Assembly (NCBI GenBank): GCA_020697025.1
Contig: JAJFBO010000014.1
Span: 1 to 11,015, forward strand
Source of the DNA: Burkholderiales bacterium
GTDB taxonomy: Bacteria; Pseudomonadota; Gammaproteobacteria; Burkholderiales; UBA11063
Direction: 5' to 3'
Length of the DNA stretch: 11,015 nt
Both the position numbers and the translations under genes were made by a program. The notes beneath the pieces were generated by a model. The model did no database searches and was not told the DNA's origin. It worked only from the letters and a program-made list of their open reading frames with translations. Below are positions 3,180 through 8,499 of the stretch, piece after piece (position 1 is the stretch's first letter; every line of letters begins with the position of its first letter).

Positions 3180-3261
3180 TATTGGTTTTTATGTAATTTC
3201 TATTTGATATTTTTAGCAATTGGCAGATGTTACGATACAGATAATGAATTGAGCAAAAAGA

Positions 3262-3339
3262 GAAACAAACTAAGTAAAACTACTCATAACTAAATAGGTT
3301 CAAAAGGTTTGCTTCTAAAATATGCTACTTGCATATTTT
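3262..3339 (+). repeat. Hairpin-bearing repeat, copy 1
   Basis: The copy starts with GAAACAAAC (3262-3270), passes through GGTTCAAAAGGTTTGCTTCT, and ends in a perfect 9-bp inverted repeat: AAAATATGC (3317-3325), loop TACTT, GCATATTTT (3331-3339). Copy 2 follows with an 84-bp offset. The downstream block ACCAAATTTCGGGTAT present in copies 2 and 3 is missing here, so copy 1 is the short form. Confidence 0.7.
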
Positions 3340-3341
3340 AA

Positions 3342-3474
3342 GGGCGAAACAAACCAGATAAAGCTACTTATAATTAATAGATTTAAAAGGTTCACTTCCA
3401 AATATGTTATTTACATATCCTCAGTCATAAGTATATCTAAATATGAAAAAAGTAAATTACCAAATTTCGGGTAT
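3342..3474 (+). repeat. Hairpin-bearing repeat, copy 2 (long form)
   Basis: It starts GGGCGAAACAAAC, continues with AAGCTACTTATAATTAATAG, and holds the hairpin ATATGT (3402-3407), loop TATTT, ACATAT (3413-3418). It ends in the block ACCAAATTTCGGGTAT (to 3474), which is shared base for base with copy 3. The hairpin differs from copy 1 by a matched C-to-T and G-to-A change that keeps the pairing. Confidence 0.7.
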
Positions 3475-3647: not shown

Positions 3648-3697
3648 TGTTAAATAATACTTGGTGGATAATGAATTCTTTTGTTACTTGAATAAAA

Positions 3698-3834
3698 AGG
3701 CGAAACAAACTAAATGAAGCCACTTAAAGTTTAATGGGTTCAGAAGGTCTGCTTCTAAAAATATGTTAATCACATATTTCTAAGATAGGATTTTAAACAA
3801 ATTCAAAAAGATCAAATTACCAAATTTCGGGTAT
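3698..3834 (+). repeat. Hairpin-bearing repeat, copy 3 (long form) abutting the regulator gene
   Basis: It starts AAGGCGAAACAAAC, shares AGGTCTGCTTCTAAAA with copy 1, and has the hairpin AAATATGT (3759-3766), loop TAATC, ACATATTT (3772-3779). It closes with ACCAAATTTCGGGTAT (to 3834), three bases before the stop codon of the minus-strand regulator gene. Block order and spacing match copy 2 within a few bases. Confidence 0.7.
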
Positions 3835-3837
3835 CGG

Positions 3838-5016
3838 CTATTTGGAATTAAAATCCCCAGGTAAGAATGGAATTAATTTAAGCATACTTGCTTTTTCAAG
3901 TAGTTGTCCTATGTTATAAACACCAAATTTAGGATATAGTTGTTTATTGATGACAGCTTGAATTGTTGCAGGCGCAAATTTTTTATTTTCTATGATAGAT
4001 AAAATTGCAGCAATATCTTTGGGTGATTTATTAAGTGAGAGGTAGTATAATGTTTGGCTTTCTCTATTAGTAAGAGTGATATTTTTATCTAAGTCATTTA
4101 TTTCCAACTTAGTACCAGTCTTTTCATTTATTGTTTTTATTCTAAATTCATTCATCATCTGTTGCATGGCATCAACAAACTTTATAAGTTCTTTTTGCGC
4201 ATTTTTTTCTGCTAAATATGTTTCCTTTTCAAGTTGGAGCTGATTAGCTTTTTTTTGTGCTGTAATGTCAATAGAAGTTCCAACTATCCCAATGACTTTA
4301 CCGTAATTATCTAATAACCTATTTTTAGCTGATAAATAAATTCGTTCCTCATCATTAAATATTACTTGTTCTTCGCTTTCATGAGGGCCATCTTTCATTA
4401 CTAAAGTATCCATTTTGCTTATTGTGCCGGCAATTTCAGGGGGGTATAAATCATAATCTGTTTTACCAATAAGTTCTCTACGGTCTTTTGCTCCAAACAT
4501 ATCAACCATATATTTGTTACAGCCTAAAATATGCCCGCTTTTATCTTTCCAGTAGATGCTGGCATTTACTACATCGATAATTTGCATGATTTTCATTTGT
4601 TCATTATTAACAGCTTGTTGTTTTTCTTGCTCAACAAATTTCTTCTGATCTGTAATATCAAATGAAACTCCTGCTATTCCTATAACATTTCCCTTAGCAT
4701 CGCGTAATTGTGTTTTGGTTGAGAAATAAATTCTTTGTTCACCATTTGGAAAGTTAACACGCTCTTCTCCAGTATAACTGCCTGTTTTCATTACAGATAT
4801 ATCGGCAGCTCTAATTTCATCAGCGTAATTTTTCCAGCATAATTCATAATCAGTTTTACCAATAATTTTGGCTCTATCTTTTAATCCAGCCATTTTTAGC
4901 ATGTATTTATTGCAACCTAAAATATGCCCCTCTTTATCTTTCCAATAAATGCTAGCACCAATTGCATCAATAAGTTTATAATTATTTTCATCTTCAAAGT
5001 TAAATTGATTAATCAT
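3838..5016 (-). CDS. Double-PAS transcriptional regulator with a LuxR-like DNA-binding end
   Basis: Two very similar PAS domains lie in tandem, about residues 16-127 and 146-258. Each contains ASIYWKDKxGHILGCNKYM, an IGKTDY turn and a closing DITxQKK segment, which points to an internal duplication. A helical, Lys/Glu/Gln-rich linker (about 255-312) looks like a coiled coil for dimerisation. The C-terminus (315-376) begins LTNRES, followed by SPKDIAAIL and ATIQAVINKQLYPKFGV, the layout of a LuxR/GerE-type helix-turn-helix. It has roughly 7 extra residues (IIENKKF) before the recognition helix. There is no receiver domain or membrane segment, so it probably senses a cytoplasmic ligand. The gene lies 21 bp behind the NRPS gene with its Shine-Dalgarno (AAAGGA) in that gap, so the two are very likely one transcript and the regulator may answer to the NRPS product. 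The ligand and DNA target are unknown. Confidence 0.8.
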   Translation of the reverse strand: MINQFNFEDENNYKLIDAIGASIYWKDKEGHILGCNKYMLKMAGLKDRAKIIGKTDYELCWKNYADEIRAADISVMKTGSYTGEERVNFPNGEQRIYFSTKTQLRDAKGNVIGIAGVSFDITDQKKFVEQEKQQAVNNEQMKIMQIIDVVNASIYWKDKSGHILGCNKYMVDMFGAKDRRELIGKTDYDLYPPEIAGTISKMDTLVMKDGPHESEEQVIFNDEERIYLSAKNRLLDNYGKVIGIVGTSIDITAQKKANQLQLEKETYLAEKNAQKELIKFVDAMQQMMNEFRIKTINEKTGTKLEINDLDKNITLTNRESQTLYYLSLNKSPKDIAAILSIIENKKFAPATIQAVINKQLYPKFGVYNIGQLLEKASMLKLIPFLPGDFNSK

Positions 5017-5037
5017 TCATAAATTCCTTTTATGGCC

Positions 5038-7689
5038 TTAAGATTTGGTACGCCAACTACATAAAGTTTGGCAAATAAGACTTGATTGCTCACATACATC
5101 ATCGTGACTTATATTTTCTAAATGTGCCACTCTAATGTTTGCCGGATTTTTTATATAAAAATCGAGATTATTAAATGCTAATTTTGCTACATGATTATTT
5201 ATATCTTCATGATTTCTTATAAATTCGTTAGCATATTTTGTTGCTTTAAATAAAAGTATGTTGGAATGATACAATTTTTTTGATATTTTTTGATATACTA
5301 AATTTTGTTCACATTCGAAATTATTAATTAATTTATCAGTATAATTTTCTAAATAACCACGAGTCTGATGGTATGAATATAGTTTTTTTAGATCTTCTTT
5401 TGCTTGAGTCAAATATAAAGCTAGAGTTTTATCAATCAATACGGTATCAAGTATTACTATCCAAATTTGTTCAACTCCACGTTGTTCTAAGATACTAGCA
5501 ATTTCTAAAGCAATCTGCCCGCCAAAGGACCATCCTAAAAGTAAATATGGTTGTTTAGATTGATTGGTTTTTTGTCTAATAGCATCTAGGTTCGATAAAT
5601 AAAATTTTGCTAAGTCAGTTAGGTTACTTATTTTATTATTACTATTTAAATTATAATTATCTATACCATAGCAGCTATAATGTGCAGTCAATTTTTGTGC
5701 TAAAGAAACATATACTTCAGATCCGGCCATAGCTGGGTGAATCATAAAGATATTTAACTTATCTGTAGTATTATTTAGGTTATTAATAAGTTGAAATTTA
5801 TTCGGCTTTAATAGTGGTATTAATTTATCCAATGTTTTGGCAGTGTAAATATCTACAATTTTAATCTGACACTTAAATTTGACGTTTATTCTATTTATTA
5901 ATTTAATAGCTAGTATACTATCGCCGCCAAGTCTAAAAAAATCGTCATAGATTCCTATATTGTTAACCGGTATTTTTAATACTGTGCTCCAAATATCACA
6001 TAATTCAATTTCCACTTGGTTTCTAGGAGCTACATAGCTACTATCTTGATCAATTTTATAATTAAGTAAAGCAATACGATCTAATTTGCCATTAACTGTT
6101 AATGGCAGCTTATCTATCTGTATAAAGATATTGGGAATCATGTGTTCCGGTAACATATTGGATAGATAAGATTTTATTTCCTTTTCTACTAATTTGTTCT
6201 CAGAAATATAATAACAAATTAAATATTTTGGACCTTCCATATCAACTTCTATAGTATTAGTATGTTCTTTTAATAATACTACGGCTTGTTTTATTCCTGA
6301 ATAAGCCATTAAAGTAGACTCAATCTCTCCGAGTTCAACTCTAAAACCACGTATTTTGATTTGGGCATCATTACGTGCAATGTATTCAAAATCCTTGTTA
6401 GCTAAATAACGAACTAGGTCTCCAGTTCTGTATAATCTGTTATTTCTATTTTTTATTTTTTCTTCTTCAGTTTGAAATGGATTAGTAATAAATCTCTCTG
6501 CAGTTAATTCTGGTAAATTTAAATAGCCTCTGGCAAGCCTGTCTCCGCCAATAAATAATTCACCAATCTCTCCAGGGGGTAATGGGGTCAAATTATTGTC
6601 CAGAATATATCCTTGCATATTTGGAATAAATTTACCTATACATGATGTAGAACTAATATCTGCATTAGATATTTTTTTATAGGTAACGTGTATTGTAGTT
6701 TCTGTTATACCATACATATTAATTAATTCAGGCTTTAAAGGTTCGTATTTATCGAACCAGGGCTTTAATCGTTGGAAGTTTAGTTTATCTCCACCAAATA
6801 TTACATATTTTAAATTATCTAGTTTGGTTGGCTTATTTAGGTCAATATCCATAAATTGATAAAATACATTTGGGGTTTGATTCAATATGGTAACTTTTTC
6901 TCTCTCGCAAAGTGTATAAAATAATTCAGTATTTTTTACTAATTCAGCTGGACATATGACTAATTTTCCACCGTATAGTAATGCACCAAATATTTCCCAT
7001 ACGCTAAAATCAAAAATATAGGAGTGAAACAAAGTCCATACATCATGTTCGCTAAATTTATATAAACCTTCTGTGGCACTGAATAAGCTTATAACATTAC
7101 CATGTAATTGAAGAACTCCTTTTGGCTTTCCAGTGGTACCGCTGGTATAAATTACATAAGCTAAATCACGGCTGGTGGTGTTTACCTTAGGATTGCTAAT
7201 CGGTTGTTTCGTAAAATAATTTTGTACTAATTCCTGATTGTCTATAGCTAGAATATTGTAATCCCTAATTTGAGTCCTGTATAAGGTAGTAGAAAGTTGT
7301 TCACTGGTAATAATTATTTTGGCTTTAGTGTCTTCTAATATATAATTAATGCGATCTTTTGGAGCAGCTGTATCTATTGGTACATATGCTCCACCAGCTT
7401 TAAGCACGGCTAAAATAGCTATTACCATAGATTCATTTCTATTTAAATATAATGCAATTAAATCGCCATGTTGTACTTTAGAGACATTTTGTAAATAATG
7501 TGCTAATTGATTTGCAAGATTATTTAATTTCTGGTAGGTAATACTAATATTCTTAAAAGAAATTGCTATGTTATTGGGTGTATTAATAACTTGTTTTTGA
7601 AATAATTCATGAATAGAGCTATATTGAGAATTATTGGATTCAATCGCTCTATCTAGGCTAATTGGCGTTAAATTTGTATATTCTAACAA
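5038..7689 (-). CDS. Single-module NRPS (adenylation - carrier - thioesterase), predicted threonine-activating
   Basis: The protein has 883 residues. The adenylation domain (about 25-540) has all core motifs: ITYQKL, VLKAGGAYVPID, YTSGTTGKPKG (181-191), FDFSVWE (226-232), NMYGITETT, YRTGDL, IRGFRVELGEIE and NGKLD with catalytic Lys535. Reading the pocket against GrsA gives D227, F228, W231, N270, I297, G299, M325, I333, H334, K535. This is DFWNIGMIHK, one conservative change from the threonine code DFWNIGMVHK. The carrier domain has LGGDS with phosphopantetheine Ser591. The thioesterase has HPAMAG, GWSFGG with Ser721, Asp748 and probably His862. There is no condensation domain, so the enzyme should load one amino acid and release it as acid, lactone, ester or dimer. 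The start is a TTG with AAGAGA upstream; the frame has a stop (TAA) 13 codons earlier and no nearby ATG. Specificity is inference; domain order is secure. Confidence 0.9.
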   Translation of the reverse strand: MLEYTNLTPISLDRAIESNNSQYSSIHELFQKQVINTPNNIAISFKNISITYQKLNNLANQLAHYLQNVSKVQHGDLIALYLNRNESMVIAILAVLKAGGAYVPIDTAAPKDRINYILEDTKAKIIITSEQLSTTLYRTQIRDYNILAIDNQELVQNYFTKQPISNPKVNTTSRDLAYVIYTSGTTGKPKGVLQLHGNVISLFSATEGLYKFSEHDVWTLFHSYIFDFSVWEIFGALLYGGKLVICPAELVKNTELFYTLCEREKVTILNQTPNVFYQFMDIDLNKPTKLDNLKYVIFGGDKLNFQRLKPWFDKYEPLKPELINMYGITETTIHVTYKKISNADISSTSCIGKFIPNMQGYILDNNLTPLPPGEIGELFIGGDRLARGYLNLPELTAERFITNPFQTEEEKIKNRNNRLYRTGDLVRYLANKDFEYIARNDAQIKIRGFRVELGEIESTLMAYSGIKQAVVLLKEHTNTIEVDMEGPKYLICYYISENKLVEKEIKSYLSNMLPEHMIPNIFIQIDKLPLTVNGKLDRIALLNYKIDQDSSYVAPRNQVEIELCDIWSTVLKIPVNNIGIYDDFFRLGGDSILAIKLINRINVKFKCQIKIVDIYTAKTLDKLIPLLKPNKFQLINNLNNTTDKLNIFMIHPAMAGSEVYVSLAQKLTAHYSCYGIDNYNLNSNNKISNLTDLAKFYLSNLDAIRQKTNQSKQPYLLLGWSFGGQIALEIASILEQRGVEQIWIVILDTVLIDKTLALYLTQAKEDLKKLYSYHQTRGYLENYTDKLINNFECEQNLVYQKISKKLYHSNILLFKATKYANEFIRNHEDINNHVAKLAFNNLDFYIKNPANIRVAHLENISHDDVCEQSSLICQTLCSWRTKS

Positions 7690-7737
7690 GGTTGTTGGTT
7701 CTCTTGAAATATTTTAGCTAGCTTTATGGTGTGTTAA

Positions 7738-7749
7738 CCCAGATCTGGG
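7738..7749. promoter_or_regulatory. Perfect 12-bp palindrome between the PQ-loop and NRPS genes
   Basis: CCCAGATCTGGG is a perfect palindrome and one of the few G+C-rich spots in this AT-rich region. It lies in the 65-bp gap before the TTG start of the NRPS gene. As DNA it would suit a dimeric regulator. As RNA it gives only a 4-bp stem with a GATC loop. Its position suggests control of NRPS expression, but this is inference. Confidence 0.35.
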
Positions 7750-7754
7750 GGATT

Positions 7755-8066
7755 TTAGTCCAAATTATGACTATTTTTACTATGTTGGTTTTTTATTAAA
7801 TAAGAATAGCGGTACCAGATAATAAGGGTTGTTACAATTGTATTAGTAATTAAAGTAAAGGCATAACCTAGCATAAGTAAAGTATCATTTCTTATAAAAG
7901 CATGTAAGAAAATAAATATACTTATTATATTGAATCCAGCAAAAGTAAGCAAGGATATATCATCTGCATGTTTTGTTTTATAAAGCCGGATAATCTGTGG
8001 AATGTATAAAATTGCATTAATAAACAGCCCAATAGAAAAAACAAACTCAATAAAAAATTTAATCAT
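7755..8066 (-). CDS. SemiSWEET-type PQ-loop membrane protein
   Basis: This 103-residue protein has three predicted membrane helices (about 5-26, 39-58 and 64-87). The first ends in the PQ motif YIPQ (Pro23, Gln24), followed by a basic loop RLYKTKHADD and ISLLTFAGFN. This is one PQ-loop triple-helix bundle, the size and layout of bacterial SemiSWEETs. Those act as homodimers and, in the studied cases, move sugars; related PQ-loop proteins carry amino acids. The substrate here is unknown. AGGGA, 7 bases before the ATG, supports the start. It is the first gene of the set PQ-loop - NRPS - regulator, with 65 bp to the next gene. It may therefore move the substrate or product of the NRPS, but the link rests on position only. 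Confidence 0.75.
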   Translation of the reverse strand: MIKFFIEFVFSIGLFINAILYIPQIIRLYKTKHADDISLLTFAGFNIISIFIFLHAFIRNDTLLMLGYAFTLITNTIVTTLIIWYRYSYLIKNQHSKNSHNLD

Positions 8067-8126
8067 TACAAATCCCTTTTTTTAGAATGGTTGTTAAAAT
8101 GCAATTTGCTTTGTTTTTACCCACTT

Positions 8127-8132
8127 ATTATA
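8127..8132 (-). promoter_or_regulatory. Possible -10 box for the PQ-loop / NRPS / regulator operon
   Basis: On the minus strand TATAAT lies about 60 bases before the PQ-loop start codon and downstream of the terminator of the preceding gene, the right place for the operon promoter. No convincing -35 is seen at 17 bp spacing, which fits a promoter that needs an activator, although chance matches are common in AT-rich DNA. Confidence 0.3.
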
Positions 8133-8144
8133 CATTATTATGAT

Positions 8145-8179
8145 GAGAGAGAATAAAATTATAAGCATTTGCTTATAAT
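8145..8179 (-). terminator. Factor-independent-like terminator of the small gene at 8227-8499
   Basis: Read on the minus strand, ATTATAAGC and GCTTATAAT (8179-8171 and 8166-8158) form a perfect 9-bp stem with a 4-base AAAT loop, followed at once by TTTTATT. It begins about 48 bases after the stop codon of the minus-strand gene. It separates that gene from the PQ-loop operon on the same strand. Confidence 0.6.
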
Positions 8180-8226: not shown

Positions 8227-8499
8227 TCAATTTTCTATAACAACTTTATTTCTAAAGTTTTTCATTGTTTCTTTTAGTTTGGGCTGATACTTCGGATTGA
8301 TTTTATTGATTGCGTCAGCTTGCTTTGTTATAGGTAAGAATTTAATTATTCGACGTGCTTCTGATTCGATTAAGGAAGAATCAATAATTTCATTGATTAA
8401 CTTAGTATAGCGCGTACTTAATTCAGATTCAGAAGCTGTGTTTCTAAATAATGCTTCAGCTTGTTGCTGTATTAAGCTAAACAGCAGTAGTTCCTTCAT
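8227..8499 (-). CDS. Small helical protein of unknown function, 90 aa
   Basis: The product starts MKELLLFSLIQQQAEALF and is rich in charged and Leu/Ile residues with almost no Gly or Pro in the first 60 positions. It should be all-helical and soluble. The stretch from residue 20 to 60 has regular hydrophobic spacing that suits a helical bundle or a protein-binding adaptor. The last third is basic (PKYQPKLKETMKNF). I recognise no family. The start is well supported by GGAGAG 8 bases before the ATG, and a good terminator follows, so it is very likely a real single-gene unit. It is divergent from the tandem small genes at 8796-9405 and shares a motif-rich promoter gap with them. Confidence 0.6.
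   Translation of the reverse strand: MKELLLFSLIQQQAEALFRNTASESELSTRYTKLINEIIDSSLIESEARRIIKFLPITKQADAINKINPKYQPKLKETMKNFRNKVVIEN

Follow-up and report, generated by a model that had tools for sequence, protein, structure and literature searches.

Can a single bacterial operon encode the synthesis of a small molecule together with its receptor? This question is raised by three adjacent genes in an 11,015-nucleotide stretch of DNA from a Burkholderiales bacterium (assembly GCA_020697025.1, contig JAJFBO010000014.1; the whole stretch is called the window here), which is an entire contig (C183) of a genome of 1.6 Mb and 88% completeness (G000). The genes specify a SemiSWEET-like membrane protein, a nonribosomal peptide synthetase (NRPS) built from one adenylation (A), one thiolation (T) and one thioesterase (TE) domain, and a regulator of the PAS-PAS-LuxR type:

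7755..8066, minus strand: SemiSWEET-like PQ-loop membrane protein, 103 aa
5038..7689, minus strand: A-T-TE single-module NRPS with predicted threonine loading, 883 aa, TTG start
3838..5016, minus strand: PAS-PAS-LuxR-type regulator, predicted small-molecule receptor, 392 aa

Comparison within a set of 23 genomes of the same genus (Aquella-type, G000 counted in) and with related loci elsewhere makes us lean, on a nearly even balance, toward reading this operon as a self-contained, autoregulated circuit that makes and senses a small molecule and is VqmA-like in its working.

Three co-directional genes had been predicted here from the sequence, and all are intact open reading frames on the minus strand where predicted, with gaps of 65 bases (SemiSWEET-NRPS) and 21 bases (NRPS-regulator). 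The full trio occurs in 2 of the 23 genus genomes, i.e., in G000 and in 1 of the 22 others (G016, contig C10), where the gene order is kept and a 90-aa gene upstream is also present. Protein identities between the two loci reach 80% (SemiSWEET), 76% (NRPS) and 84% (regulator). Because all three genes are conserved together in G016, the trio is not a chance arrangement, and the low nonsynonymous relative to synonymous divergence from that genome (dN/dS of 0.11/0.91, or ~0.12, for SemiSWEET; 0.14/1.01, or ~0.14, for the NRPS; 0.09/1.29, or ~0.07, for the regulator) indicates that its genes are maintained under purifying selection rather than decaying. The original prediction named conservation of the three-gene order in distant genomes as support. 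Such conservation was not seen: an A-T-TE enzyme between SemiSWEET and PAS-LuxR genes was found only in the window and G016 among the genus genomes and the SemiSWEET loci of named genomes described below.

The synthetase matches the Pfam families AMP-binding (E 6e-85), PP-binding (8e-15) and Thioesterase (8e-16). Its A, T and TE domains follow in this order with no condensation (C) domain, all core motifs searched are present (A3, A5, A7, A8, A10, PCP and TE, the last as GWSFG with the TE serine at residue 721), and the TTG start codon stands where the G016 ortholog has GTG. The A-domain code, DFWNIGMIHK, differs by one residue from the threonine code DFWNIGMVHK, which Table 1 of PMC2533009 (cf. 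PMC12283262) assigns to a domain whose product bears Thr at that position. The threonine-type A-T-TE enzyme proposed earlier is thereby confirmed in its domains, with threonine as the substrate predicted from the code. The accompanying claim that no partner synthetase is present holds for contig C183 and fails for the genome, in which at least nine other contigs carry NRPS stretches; some of these may be fragments of one cluster.

Two PAS domains are recognized in the regulator (PAS_4, E 4.9e-32), and the LuxR-type GerE domain by itself reaches only E 0.023, below the cut-off. Both the PAS and the helix-turn-helix parts align with VqmA (phmmer E 8e-7; profile E 4e-15), and VqmA proteins are the nearest solved relatives. 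Three further regulators, P0123-P0125, show 79 to 85% identity. At the position of VqmA Lys101, almost all of 14 aligned rows have a lysine (K101, with K231 in the second PAS domain). We take Lys101 to be the residue that contacts the autoinducer DPO in VqmA; two papers gave no confirmation of this contact. VqmA has a single PAS domain, and because the window regulator has two, we do not class it as a VqmA, only as VqmA-like in working.

The SemiSWEET-like protein matches PF04193 (E 4.8e-9), and a profile of its relatives matches solved SemiSWEETs, the best being 4rng (E 1.3e-6). As in SemiSWEETs, a single PQ-loop unit makes up a chain of ~90 to 100 aa with a PQ motif (P23 and Q24, unchanged across 6 aligned rows). 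Where the solved structures 4rng, 4x5m and 4qnc have a Trp and an Asn, which we take to be pocket residues, the profile and the window protein have Ile and Tyr; we thus call the protein SemiSWEET-like and claim no sugar transport for it. Across the 23 genomes there are seven SemiSWEET matches (the window; G016 contigs C10, C7, C5 with two, and C8; G004:C307), and all seven adjoin a PAS sensor. What varies is the synthase slot, which holds an A-T-TE enzyme at two of the loci, a cyclodipeptide synthase (CDPS) at three and a protein that we call family X at the remaining two. The CDPS stands alone in L086 and is fused to a PAS-kinase in L089 and L090 (L numbers denote loci and P numbers proteins); its assignment rests on a profile of eight relatives that matches the solved CDPS 5ocd (E 6e-83). 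A genus-wide CDPS search returned only these three SemiSWEET-linked places and no match in G000. The window thus keeps a SemiSWEET and a PAS sensor together in a single run of genes, with an A-T-TE enzyme in place of the CDPS, and is a variant rather than a member of the CDPS-PAS-SemiSWEET cassette.

Scanning named genomes with the SemiSWEET alignment yielded 47 loci (4 of them from G016), and a sensor is adjacent or fused at 29, counting two with a kinase and little recognizable PAS (L111 and L118) and two with only the PAS part before a contig end (L113 and L132). These 29 include 11 loci with a strong CDPS (L107, L109, L110, L113, L117, L121, L135, L137, L140, L144 and L147), 2 with a weak one (L111 and L118), 11 with family X and 1 with A-T-TE, the G016 ortholog. 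Sensor-linked SemiSWEETs occur in Aquella-like bacteria, Legionella, other gammaproteobacteria, alphaproteobacteria including Holosporaceae, and Endomicrobium; no sensor was found with the Nostoc-type, acidobacterial and some other SemiSWEETs of the scan. In L125, L129, L131, L140, L144, L147 and P0201, the SemiSWEET is fused N-terminally to a PAS-kinase. In a SemiSWEET tree of 87 columns, with L139 (65 aa) excluded and deeper forks unsure, both A-T-TE rows nest with one CDPS and one X row in a clade of four (100/96), and the same SemiSWEET lineage therefore stands by different synthases. Family X proteins are ~420 to 470 aa long (420 aa in the genus) with invariant Cys and His residues; they lie at L087:7034-8296 and L088:5367-6626 and also in L116, L119, L120, L126, L128, L132, L134, L136 and L138. 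The family was found via SemiSWEET loci, and its linkage to SemiSWEET is biased by that search.

Synthases are paired with PAS sensors outside the trio as well. We listed the NRPS release domains of the genus as 15 places with a reductase domain (TD; E <= 1.7e-29) and 23 with a TE domain above the cut-off, dropping 9 TE rows below it and excluding weaker TD rows, which from their frame lengths are likely to be other kinds of enzyme (reductases that stand alone, or dehydratases). The TD places are fused to a PAS-kinase in five cases and have a PAS sensor directly downstream in six and upstream in one; one more lies at a contig end (G011:C118), and two, neither with an A domain on its short contig, have none. 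By the seeds used, the short contigs of TD places G006:C98 and G002:C293 carry no A or carrier domain. Seven TE places are followed by a co-directional PAS sensor that overlaps or starts within 200 bases (one is cut by a contig end), another has a convergent sensor, and yet another has one 3.5 kb upstream. Altogether, 18 of the 38 release domains have a PAS sensor in the same chain or immediately behind them, including 6 of the 7 in G000. As a control, none of 11 PAS matches stood at an NRPS place among the matches listed for seven genomes of other families of the order with NRPS matches. One NRPS-sensor pair of G000, on contig C145 (L010), consists of a carrier-thioesterase fragment truncated at the contig end and, behind it, a PAS-LuxR gene whose product is 47% identical to the window regulator. 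No second SemiSWEET was found in the G000 assembly, and this pair may therefore lack one. Many other NRPS-sensor pairs of the genus also have no SemiSWEET, which shows that the NRPS version of the layout does not depend on one.

Synthase and sensor also occur in one polypeptide. With the PAS-kinase part of one fusion as the query, 15 of 70 matches had both AMP-binding and HATPase domains; 5 of these 15 NRPS-PAS-kinase fusions lie on contigs longer than 60 kb, and 2 are from G000. NRPS chains ending in a reductase domain, PAS and histidine kinase were seen at L078, L079, L080 (G000), L096, L100 (G016) and in P0241-P0247, P0249-P0254, P0257 and P0258. An N-terminal domain resembling GNAT, FeeM N-acyl amino acid synthase or Autoind_synth proteins is fused to PAS-LuxR in 8 of 10 scanned proteins (P0161, P0174, P0178, P0181, P0190, P0193, P0194 and P0196), with only P0174, P0181, P0193 and P0194 above a GNAT cut-off, and comparison of N termini alone places P0165, P0172 and P0198 beside them. 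P0182, P0207 and P0248 carry a CDPS-like domain fused to the PAS-LuxR type. The earlier notion of a unit that makes, moves and senses a signal thus gains comparative support, in that synthases of several unrelated kinds are repeatedly found paired with a PAS sensor; the trio itself was not seen in distant genomes.

The region upstream of the operon contains a predicted operator and a putative promoter:

8158..8179, no strand assigned: 22-bp perfect palindrome, predicted operator, with 10-bp arms and a 2-bp center
8162-8175: palindrome core TAAGCANNTGCTTA
8127..8132, minus strand: -10-like TATAAT, putative promoter, aligned with TGTATAAT in G016
8227..8499, minus strand: conserved 90-aa neighbor upstream of the palindrome, 76% identical to its G016 counterpart, of uncertain membership in the unit and with no Pfam match above the cut-off

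On the operon strand, the palindrome reads ATTATAAGCA AA TGCTTATAAT (TAAGCA type). By an eye count, TATAAT begins 37 bases from its center, and the SemiSWEET start is ~90 bases off. The core is identical at G016:C10, where the arms are shorter. Exact cores number three in G000, three in G016, one in G009 and none in G021, and the reversed control gave none. One G016 core with 10-bp arms lies ~220 bases before a C-A-T-TD NRPS and a PAS-LuxR gene (L099), and a core on G000:C142 lies between a piece resembling, by eye, the receiver end of a sensor and two GNAT genes. The same helix, QAVIxKQLYPKF, occurs in the regulators of all three operons with a site (the window, its G016 ortholog and L099), and this sharing suggests that they may bind the palindrome. 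A different site accompanies a different helix in L095: TTGGTATACCAA-type palindromes (two of them exact) precede three of five PAS-LuxR genes whose products have the helix NAIINK(K/R)LYPKF. These five consecutive genes (L095:9219-15924) lie upstream of a very large NRPS-PAS-kinase. A single operator common to all sensor operons was considered and rejected, with the TAAGCA palindrome present, among the upstream regions of 24 genes, only at the window, the G016 ortholog (core only) and L099.

Direct repeats lie between the regulator and the next gene:

3688..3834, minus strand: repeat copy C, two hairpins and a U-rich end, starting 3 bases past the last base of the regulator
3332..3474, minus strand: repeat copy B, 137.6 bits with the covariance model
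3248..3342, minus strand: repeat copy A, 3' part only, placed by sequence similarity and not found by the covariance model

A similarity search of G000 and G016 located the repeats only at the trio locus of each. Of three copies folded in the operon-strand orientation, two were more stable than every one of 200 shuffles (z of -3.63 for copy C and -3.83). A covariance model built from five copies, which scored up to 138 first-look candidates in each genome, gave five matches in the 23 genomes, all at the trio locus of G000 and G016. Standard pairs fill 96.6% of the pair cells versus 40 to 49% for slid versions, the structure being derived from the same alignment, and this percentage was reached by 2 of 500 shuffles. 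From five related copies, we conclude with modest confidence that the repeats may form structured RNA, for which both small RNAs and a structured 3' end would fit. The only Rfam match, DGCR5 (E 0.33), is at chance level and was discarded. G016 has a partial, divergent copy upstream of its trio as well (L075:12539-12648), and the repeats thus flank the locus in that genome. The 5' block of the repeat, TACCCGAAATTTGGTA (window 3834-3815, minus strand), is similar to palindromes of the L095 upstream regions, for instance ATACCAAAATTTGGTAT before a different PAS-LuxR gene, and may itself be a regulator site. Elsewhere in the window, a tmRNA gene occupies 2014-2366 (tag ANDKNFALAAA), and a 270-aa open reading frame at 443-1255 has a weak PAS match (PF13426, E 2e-4, below the cut-off).

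Gene content, conservation, the swap pattern, the shared palindrome and the conserved repeats are what the sequences show. The circuit that we infer, from its substrate and product through binding and transport to its signaling role and direction of regulation, would work as follows. The A-T-TE enzyme would activate threonine and carry it on the T domain, and the thioesterase would free a very small threonine-derived product, for which a cyclized dimer or something similar is a guess. The ligand of the PAS-PAS-LuxR protein would be this product or a derivative of it, and the protein would act at the palindrome upstream of the operon promoter, which would place the operon under its own control. 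The SemiSWEET-like protein might aid membrane passage of the compound or its precursor, or couple the membrane to the sensor, and the tandem repeats might act as regulatory small RNAs or give the operon a structured 3' end. The trio would then be a synthase-swap variant of loci in which a CDPS or another protein occupies the same slot.

Several observations weigh against this scheme. We infer all of its ligand, product and binding; the likeness of the regulator to VqmA, a protein with one PAS domain, is modest (single-sequence E 8e-7), and PAS domains respond to many kinds of cue. Sensor linkage is incomplete: 18 of the 47 SemiSWEETs of named genomes had no sensor seen from 4 kb before to 5 kb after, and 14 of the 23 TE places had no PAS sensor found nearby (some at contig ends), among them the distant A-T-TE pieces of G016:C3 and G001:C108, both cut by contig ends. 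Four of the 29 sensor-linked SemiSWEETs (L122, L125, L129 and L131) lack a recognized synthase, the sensor of L122 being on the opposite strand, and family X has neither a Pfam or solved-fold match nor a known function. The SemiSWEET relative of one CDPS cassette, on G016:C8 (L089 ~7890-8084, minus strand), is broken by an internal stop, next to an intact CDPS-PAS-kinase gene. As for the operator, 21 of 24 upstream regions (up to 350 bases each) were without a TAAGCA palindrome, the cores on G000:C83 and G016:C5 are not near a recognized sensor operon, and that on G009:C64 lies inside a gene, likewise without such context. The match between helix and site is not strict, because NAIINKK-type helices also occur in L087 and L094, where no TTGGTATACCAA site was found. 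Among the repeats, the third folded copy had a z of only -0.85, and the three pairs changed on both sides were equaled in 151 of 500 shuffles and the covariation score in 33 of 500.

Other explanations have to be weighed against the same data. A doubtful but serious one is that the PAS-LuxR protein is a cluster-situated regulator that senses a general cue (oxygen, redox, or a host or diet compound), with a metallophore, an antimicrobial or a host-directed compound as the product instead of a signal. Regulators next to NRPSs are generally common, light, oxygen and redox state are frequent cues of PAS domains, and DosP, LOV and FixL proteins are among the top Foldseek rows. However, the same PAS family is fused in-chain to NRPS, CDPS and GNAT-like domains, a better fit to product sensing, and the pairing was not seen among the matches listed for the control genomes. 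It is rather unlikely that the SemiSWEET is itself the sensor, i.e., the PQ-loop receptor part of a membrane sensing system, from which the PAS protein receives a ligand or signal. The N-terminal fusions to PAS-kinases and the replacement of the solved SemiSWEETs' Trp and Asn by Ile and Tyr speak for such a role, whereas in the window the protein is encoded by a separate 103-aa gene, and a fusion is compatible with transport as well.

We consider it improbable that the A-T-TE enzyme is a trans-acting loader that provides a threonine unit to NRPSs encoded elsewhere in the genome, with the regulator serving that larger pathway. The threonine code does occur on other NRPS pieces of G000 (exact in L081/C95 and over nine aligned positions in L003/C192), but the enzyme's own TE domain would release the unit, and the operon is intact with its SemiSWEET and regulator in G016. 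Least credible of all is a remnant, i.e., a decaying C-A-T-TE enzyme that has lost its C domain. P0011 is a C-A-T-TE protein with a threonine code, and P0006 is an A-T-TE protein with the same threonine-type code and an N-terminal stretch that by eye resembles a remnant of a C domain, making it a possible intermediate in such a loss. Against decay stand the presence of all core motifs searched and a dN/dS of ~0.14 over 882 codons relative to G016.

The make-and-sense circuit thus remains our preferred reading. We propose more tentatively, as a possibility that we would not yet favor, that it belongs to a modular class of one-locus circuits in which interchangeable synthases (NRPS, CDPS, GNAT autoinducer-synthase-like and family X) are wired or fused to PAS receptors. 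The window would be a VqmA-VqmR-like version with an NRPS-made threonine-derived autoinducer, a SemiSWEET-like carrier or coreceptor, an autoregulatory palindrome and tandem small RNAs. If the product does bind the coencoded PAS protein, synthase-receptor pairs could be read from the genome, and each swap (NRPS, CDPS, GNAT or X) would be a natural experiment on ligand change in the PAS receptor. Many orphan NRPSs and CDPSs, several of them in Legionella, Endomicrobium and Holosporaceae, would gain a role, and synthase-receptor fusions would serve as ready-made single-chain sensors.

Parts of this picture relate to published systems; in open-licence PMC text, where absence is weak evidence, no publication was found that deals with the operator, with NRPS-PAS-kinase fusions, with the SemiSWEET component or with the swap to an A-T-TE enzyme. 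Earlier work had already drawn attention to CDPSs in intracellular bacteria (PMC2922099), and a Legionella CDPS of the XYP type produces cGE (PMC5816076). The location of CDPSs near PAS domains, with a suggestion of quorum sensing, was published by Skinnider et al. in 2018 (PMC5767969), whose proposal that CDPS products made near PAS domains are signals would become testable if the window product binds the coencoded PAS protein. The window shares with those clusters a small amino acid-derived product predicted to be made near a PAS sensor and differs in having an A-T-TE enzyme for the CDPS; the passage concerned in PMC5767969 does not mention a SemiSWEET, a synthase swap or NRPS-sensor fusions. 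Like the RalA, atromentin and indigoidine synthetases, the window NRPS combines A, T and TE domains in one chain with no C domain. Those enzymes use aryl keto acids or glutamine, whereas for the window enzyme the code points to threonine, and its operon also encodes a predicted receptor and a PQ-loop protein. The valdiazen (ham) and pvf clusters contain an NRPS. They yield a small signal, as the window may do (PMC5878181 and PMC10194917), whereas Pfam matches disclose no further such pathway enzyme in the window, whose operon encodes a predicted receptor. Another close parallel is the VqmA-DPO-VqmR system of vibrios, in which the PAS-LuxR receptor is the nearest solved relative of the window regulator and DPO is a threonine-derived autoinducer. 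The vqmR gene adjoins vqmA, just as the RNA-like structured repeats adjoin the receptor gene in the window, where they lie downstream and in tandem, with a putative RNA role. Unlike the vibrio system, the window locus has two PAS domains in its receptor, a dedicated NRPS in place of Tdh and a SemiSWEET in the operon.

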